NCBI GenBank assembly: GCA_016194285.1
Contig: JACQBZ010000026.1
Location: 1-32,995, forward strand
Reading direction: 5' to 3'
DNA: 32,995 nt
Source: Nitrospirota bacterium
GTDB taxonomy: Bacteria; Nitrospirota; Nitrospiria; JACQBZ01
Shown: piece after piece, positions 17,944 through 19,792 of the stretch
How the letters are laid out: every line of letters begins with the position of its first letter
Position numbering within the stretch: position 1 is the stretch's first letter
Notes under the pieces: model-generated
Seen by the model: the letters and a program-made list of their open reading frames with translations, nothing else
Told to the model about the DNA's origin: nothing
Databases searched by the model: none
Made by a program: the position numbers and the translations under genes

Positions 17944-17952
17944 GTGTGTACG

Positions 17953-18516
17953 ATGCCGTTGCGATTTCCGAGGATCATGCTCCTGATTTTTATTGGAATG
18001 CTTCTGGCGTTGTTGGCTTGGGTTTTGTCCGTGGGCATCGAACATCCTCAAGTCCTGCCTCCATCGAGAACGCTGATCTCGAAAGCGGATATCGAAATGG
18101 AAGGGTTTACGCTCAAGCAGATTCGTAACGGTGCGGTGGAATGGGATATCAAAGCCGAGCGGGCCGAGTTATTTGAAGATCGGAAAGAGGTATTGCTCCA
18201 TGAAATGCAGGCGACCCTGCAAACTGCCGAAGGGCTCCAAGTGAGTTTTTCAGGGGATCAGGGTCTGTTAAATACGGGGACCCACGACTTTGAGATTAAG
18301 AAGAACGACGGGGATCTGGATGTATCGATGAATAACGGATTCACGATTCGGACTCCCTCGTTGAGCTGGAAGGATCAAGAGCGGGAGATTGTATCGCTGG
18401 AACCGGTTCAGATCACCGCTCAGAGACTCCGAATTCGCGGCAATCAACTGGTCGTGAAACTGGAAAATCAGCAATTTACGGTCAATGGGGATGTCCATGT
18501 TACGGCCGAGCCTTAA
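17953..18516 (+). CDS. lptC: LPS export ABC transporter periplasmic protein LptC
   Basis: One N-terminal TM segment; SKADIEMEGFTLKQIRNGAVEWDIKAERAELFEDRKEVLLHEM; directly upstream of lptA/lptB. Track ORF begins at GTG 17944. Confidence 0.88.
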   Translation: MPLRFPRIMLLIFIGMLLALLAWVLSVGIEHPQVLPPSRTLISKADIEMEGFTLKQIRNGAVEWDIKAERAELFEDRKEVLLHEMQATLQTAEGLQVSFSGDQGLLNTGTHDFEIKKNDGDLDVSMNNGFTIRTPSLSWKDQEREIVSLEPVQITAQRLRIRGNQLVVKLENQQFTVNGDVHVTAEP

Positions 18517-18552
18517 AATCATTTTGATCGCCGGTGTTTTTTTTTAAATGGC

Positions 18553-19038
18553 TTGCCCCTTTTTGCGGCGGAGGCGGTGACCCATTCCAAGACGCTTTCC
18601 ATCAGCTCTAAAAGCATGACGGTAAAAAACATGGAACATCTGGCCATTTTCGAGGGCGATGTGGTTATGGTCAAAGAGGATATGACCATCACCGCCCGCC
18701 ATGCGGAGGTCACGTTTGCTTCCAAGAATGCCCCCAGCGAGACCTCTAAATCGTCCTCGGGACTCGTCGCTCCTCGGTCTCAATTTGAGAATAATGAGAT
18801 CACGGTCATCCACGCGACCGGAGATGTCGTCCTGCAGCAGGGGGAGAAACGGGCTAAATCCAACGAGGCGTTTTATTATCAAAAGGAAGATAAGGTCGTT
18901 CTGTTGGGGGAACCGGTCGCTTGGGAAAAGGACTACAAGGTTACCGGAACCAAGATGACGATTTACTTGCAAGAGGATCGGAGTGTCGTTGAAGGCAGCA
19001 AAGTGTTGATTCATCCCAAAGAACCGTCTCAAAAGTAA
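18553..19038 (+). CDS. lptA: LPS transport periplasmic protein LptA (OstA-like); signal peptide in another frame upstream of a T9 tract
   Basis: [43 protein letters not shown]...[26 protein letters not shown]; true start probably ATG 18497 (see findings). Confidence 0.85.
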
Positions 19039-19039
19039 G

Positions 19040-19792
19040 TTGAGTCAAACGTTTTCAAGGCGGATGATGCTCTTAAGCGCGAAACATCTTGAGAAAAGTT
19101 TTCGAAAACGCAAGGTCGTGAAAGATGTCAGCCTGGAAGTAAAGACCGGCGAAGTGGTGGGATTATTGGGGCCGAATGGTGCCGGAAAGACGACGGTATT
19201 TTATATGATCGTGGGTCTGATCGCGGCGGATCAGGGAGAGATTTATCTCGATGATCAGAACATGACGCATCTGCCGATGTATCGACGAGCCCGTCGAGGA
19301 ATCGGCTATCTTCCGCAAGAACCTTCGGTTTTTCGAAAACTGACCGTTGAAGAGAATCTTCTTGCGATCCTTGAGACGTTGGACTATTCGCCCTCGGAAC
19401 GGCAGGAACGCCTCCATTCTCTCCTCAAAGAACTGAACATTTCGCATCTTTCAAAAAATAAAGCCTATGCCTTGTCGGGAGGAGAACGTCGGAGGGTCGA
19501 AATCACACGTTCGCTGGTGACGTCGCCTCACTTTCTTCTGCTGGACGAACCCTTCGCCGGAATCGATCCCATTGCGATTATCGATATTCAGAAGATTATC
19601 GGCCAATTAAAGGCCAAGGGAATCGGAATCCTCATCACGGATCATAACGTTCAGGAAACACTTGAAATTACGGATCGCTCTTATATAATCAGTGAAGGAG
19701 AAATCCTGGAATCAGGCACGTCCCAAGTTATCGCGAACAGTTCCAAGGCCAAGGCGATCTATCTGGGAGAAAAATTTCGATTTCATGGATAA
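19040..19792 (+). CDS. lptB: LPS export ABC transporter ATP-binding protein LptB
   Basis: [51 protein letters not shown]; start may be the ATG at 19064. Confidence 0.96.

Follow-up and report, generated by a model that had tools for sequence, protein, structure and literature searches.

To our knowledge, programmed transcriptional slippage has been documented in few cellular genes, chiefly in secretion systems and insertion sequences. A change of frame can also be made by the ribosome, as in Escherichia coli dnaX, whose site consists of A_AAA_AAG with an upstream Shine–Dalgarno-like element and a stem-loop. That system resembles the present one in shifting by −1 at an A-rich heptamer, the same type of frame change, but stimulators of its kind were sought in the DUF374 genes described here and not found.

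Among slippage systems, dnaX of Thermus thermophilus (PMC1088944) shares with our case an A9 run in a cellular housekeeping gene, products from two frames and the absence of a mobile element; there, however, the template frame leads to the long product, with a slippage fraction of 50% (PMC1088944), whereas in lptA and DUF374 it leads to the short one. In Shigella flexneri mxiE, two overlapping frames are joined only if one U is added within a run of U, the logic that we propose for lptA; mxiE, mxiA, spa13 and spa33 all serve type III secretion in a single lineage (PMC1088944, PMC4256274, PMC5009743), whereas lptA is a core lipopolysaccharide (LPS) transport gene whose joint falls within the signal peptide and is conserved across genera. 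The interrupted tssM1 gene of Citrobacter rodentium is likewise restored by an added A, at an A11 run, with slippage of about 20–25% and a need for both products (PMC4256274); more broadly, fractions of about 15–25% are given for mxiA and tssM1 (PMC4256274). Whereas tssM1 is an enterobacterial type VI secretion gene, the DUF374 case spans families and classes of Nitrospirota.

A search of open papers for lptA, DUF374 or Nitrospira together with slippage returned nothing on point. The type of mechanism is known, lptA and DUF374 appear to be new cases of it, and what is most unusual about them is how widely the DUF374 site occurs across the phylum. With a probability of roughly three in four, we propose that programmed RNA-polymerase slippage with an added base yields full-length LptA and DUF374 protein, a reading drawn from comparative sequence patterns. 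If true, a usually essential LPS transport gene with a slippage-stitched signal peptide and a chromosomal gene recoded throughout a phylum would extend the documented range of such recoding.

The lptA frame break and its conservation

The window, by which we mean the whole stretch of 32,995 nucleotides analysed here, comes from a fragmented draft genome of a Nitrospirota bacterium (G000; 102 contigs, 88.6% complete). It carries lptC, lptA and lptB in this order, named from Pfam and NCBIfam matches (Table 1), with the 3′ end of lptC overlapping the start of lptA. The lptA product combines an LptA/LptD_N domain with a signal peptide, the latter assessed from hydropathy alone, and its gene is flanked by lptC and lptB; against the TIGR03002 LptA model the body scores 50.5 bits, under the cut-off of 71.7.

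Table 1 Features of the lptC–lptA–lptB locus in the window and of the DUF374 site elsewhere in the same genome
Feature	Position	Strand	Remarks
lptC ORF	17944..18516	+	TIGR04409 LptC 1.2e-19, PF06835; stop TAA 18514-18516; start codon putative
lptA 0-frame leader ORF	18491..18547	+	MSMLRPSLKIILIAGVFF, stop TAA 18545-18547; start ATG 18491 or 18497
T9 slippery tract (putative)	18537..18545	+	GTTTTTTTTTAAA; last T belongs to 0-frame stop TAA
lptA body, -1 frame	18544..19038	+	signal-peptide c-region and mature LptA; PF03968 LptD_N/LptA 1.6e-16
lptB	19040..19792	+	TIGR04406 LptB 5.6e-112; ORF start TTG 19040, putative start
DUF374 gene A-run	G000:C66:29627-29637		PF04028 4.7e-30; gene split at A9

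The frame opened by ATG 18497-18499 reads MLRPSLKIILIAGVFF, which comprises the n-region and hydrophobic core of a signal peptide, and then stops at a run of exactly nine Ts; relative to it, the open frame of the LptA body is shifted by −1. That frame holds no ATG, GTG or TTG between the lptC stop and the tract, and its first start codon, TTG 18553, lies within the signal peptide. Adding one T fuses MLRPSLKIILIAGVFF to the signal-peptide c-region (11 residues) and the body. The initial annotation had read the leader to its stop in this way, had placed the body in another frame without an upstream ATG or GTG, and had joined the two by lengthening T9 to T10; re-reading the sequence confirms all three points, extends the second to TTG codons before the tract and gives the joined product a signal-peptide-like core. 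The 12-residue hydropathy of this core is 1.9–2.8 in every split genome; the LptA frame extended upstream of the tract reaches 0.5–1.3 in those genomes and has no ATG, GTG or TTG start. The better-conserved start position is ATG 18491 (MSM...), in frame with ATG 18497: an ATG stands there in all seven genomes of the family, and the second start is GTG in one of them (G002). Annotation pipelines are likely to call such an lptA broken or to miss its signal peptide, and the same holds for split DUF374 genes.

LptA was found in all seven family genomes, which represent three genera, with 65–80% identity to that of the window. Comparison with relatives, which the initial annotation had called for, yields exactly T9 at the same place in each of the seven, starting 46 or 49 nt past the first ATG at codon position 2, and the same break in five. 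In those five (G000, G001, G003, G005 and G006) the ATG frame ends at the tract and LptA goes on in −1. In the remaining two, extra bases just 3′ of the tract (+1 in G002, +4 in G004) bring lptA into frame with T9 intact, so LptA there is independent of slippage. Since the 2.31 Mb of G000 contain no A/T run of ten or more and just 16 of nine, the recurrence of T9 at lptA in all seven genomes goes beyond chance. In other families of the class, lptA has a contiguous frame and A/T runs of at most seven near its start (n = 63, two of them flagged solely for a start codon that was hard to place); a single frame goes with absence of the run there, but the in-frame G002 and G004 keep T9.

Within the class, 16 of 270 genomes have no LptA match, including G011 (96% complete) and G012 (95%); LptA in these genomes may be absent or too divergent. 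A seeming internal stop in LptA of another genome (G266) is merely the end of the gene.

A split DUF374 gene beside waaA

Screening of the remaining nine-base runs of G000 brought up a second case, a DUF374 gene situated between waaA and an ABC transporter gene, probably msbA-like. Its upstream frame stops eight codons past A9, while the −1 frame encodes the C-terminal part (ILQSWDGFLIPYPFS...). DUF374 was found in six members of the family and is split alike in all six. The split also occurs throughout the class, single-contig genomes among them, and in another set of families from a different part of the phylum. Across Nitrospirota, 78 loci were readable, of which 62 are split (L021/L059 and relatives L060-L086, L088, L119-L135, L137-L139 and L149-L161) and 16 are in frame. 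As for lptA, these counts refer to related genomes and not to independent events.

Run and split go together. All 62 split genes are shifted by −1. Their junctions carry A9 (51 loci), A10 (10) or A11 (1), compared with a longest nearby A-run of seven in the 16 in-frame homologues. The A9, A10 and A11 variants hold the same frame relation, and within the family of the window the run changes by substitution at its edge. In family f4, the split gene of G011 has A10, whereas that of G012 (L136, G012:C3:148000-149300) is in frame without the run and has probably lost the recoding site naturally as its frame was restored. Closed genomes of 2.3–4.3 Mb contain about 4–11 nine-base A/T windows each, at least one of them at the DUF374 site. 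Retention of the site across classes argues for selection, whereas the tail of the short product after the run, which spans 1 to 49 codons, is unlikely to matter given that range.

Proposed slippage and its alternatives

In the reading that we favour, lptA would be a recoded gene, with the n-region and core in one frame, the cleavage region and mature LptA in −1, and T9 at the joint. RNA polymerase would slip on T9 and add one U in some transcripts (U10), a change of −2 serving equally. Ribosomes would then read U10 transcripts straight through into full-length secreted LptA, and T9-faithful transcripts would give only a peptide of 18–19 residues ending at the stop. The same slippage would make the DUF374 protein, next to waaA, from A9–A11 in much of the phylum. 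The transcript pool is most likely mixed, with only a fraction of it giving full-length protein. Because the short lptA product would be just that peptide, LptA output would be lowered relative to LptC and LptB. What we observe are the split frames, the conserved runs, the constant direction of the shift and the tie between run and split; that RNA polymerase is responsible, how efficient it is and any dosage role are our inference. With slippage on a retained run the template frame would also hardly matter, which would account for two species being in frame and yet keeping T9.

The same proteins would result from programmed −1 ribosomal frameshifting, in which tRNAs would slip in tandem on U_UUU_UUU (lptA) or A_AAA_AAA (DUF374) and the lptA stop would act as a pause signal. 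We regard this as unlikely. In its favour, the direction is invariably −1, both heptamers are phased correctly (any run of nine holds one) and the 0-frame stop of lptA lies directly 3′ of the site. The demand for hydrophobic residues could moreover preserve extra Ts in lptA, and because these residues already require many Ts, the ribosomal route is harder to exclude there. No stimulator was found for it. Shine–Dalgarno-like sites within 24 nt upstream of the run occur in none of the 62 split DUF374 genes, folding downstream of the run is weak (mean z about −0.7), and no covarying structure or compensatory pairs were found 3′ of the lptA tract, all of which favours slippage of the transcript. 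The composition of the runs points the same way. In 49 of the 62 split DUF374 genes the run begins at codon position 3, so that its eighth and ninth A lie beyond the heptamer, yet they never vary; the ninth occupies the synonymous third position of a lysine codon and is always A, where the ratio of AAG to AAA elsewhere in DUF374 is 203:152 upstream and 47:47 downstream. Such invariance at bases needless for a ribosomal shift favours transcript slippage, as does the fact that A and T runs serve alike. Nine or more consecutive A or T bases mark the frame junction, or its position, in 7 of 7 lptA and 62 of 62 split DUF374 genes, and homology resumes in another frame across species in five of seven and 62 of 62, respectively. 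At every split junction in both genes the run spans at least nine bases, and it is at nine that many bacterial genomes show selection against slippage during transcription (PMC1088944); this again favours slippage.

Three further accounts concern the template or the stop codons. The initial annotation had offered transcriptional slippage beside phase variation and a homopolymer error, and of these it is slippage that is now well supported, by T9 throughout the family and by the same architecture in the DUF374 genes of the phylum. Homopolymer runs of about nine act as contingency loci in some bacteria, and replication slippage could in the same way alter the length of T9 and toggle LptA on and off. 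We consider this very improbable: the tract is exactly nine in all seven species despite diverging flanks, and the frame differences lie outside it, so that a constant T9 with a varying frame relation is the opposite of phase variation by tract length. In DUF374, too, the frame relation is the same whatever the run length, and within the family of the window the run changes by edge substitution. Since LptA is usually essential, switching it off would also carry a high cost. An LptC–LptA fusion made by reading through the lptC stop would suit the five split genomes, where lptC and the LptA body share one frame; it is less probable still, as G002 and G004 have the two in different frames, the linker lacks conservation, and both T9 and the hydrophobic core in the ATG frame would be left unexplained. 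As for an assembly or sequencing error, the window does come from a fragmented draft, but T9 stands in seven separate species genomes with the same break in five, A10 and A11 in relatives indicate that runs are not clipped at nine, and the DUF374 split is present in closed genomes; an error is in practice excluded.

Programmed slippage, our preferred reading, leaves room for two views of its role. As T9 would let LptA be made from either template frame, the lptA split may equally be a tolerated state, and the retention of T9 in the in-frame G002 and G004 fits selected and tolerated views alike. The lptA and DUF374 sites would let one test whether slippage sites are regulatory or merely tolerated. 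A speculative extension, which we hold to be doubtful, is a standing slippage control of LPS assembly, in which an ancient A-run in DUF374 and a younger T-run in lptA would set the full-length share, possibly tuned by factors acting on slippage, for instance nucleotide pools or temperature.

Other nine-base runs

The other A9 and T9 sites of G000, inspected singly, are mostly intergenic or in frame within genes; its 123 T8 sites were counted only. At one A9 run (L012) two genes overlap in what seems an ordinary manner, and this site was not counted as recoding. Among the A9 and T9 sites of closed relatives, inspection by eye revealed no third split gene, and several resemble terminators. Such runs in closed genomes (L216, L225, L227 and L237, in G061, G043 and G115) adjoin similar CG-rich, CGCCCTCAGG-like sequences, which suggests terminators more than sites of recoding. 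Two in-frame T9 runs of G000 (L016, G000:C45:29772; L019, G000:C61:3379) fall in hydrophobic N-terminal stretches of long ORFs, where slippage would yield truncated products.
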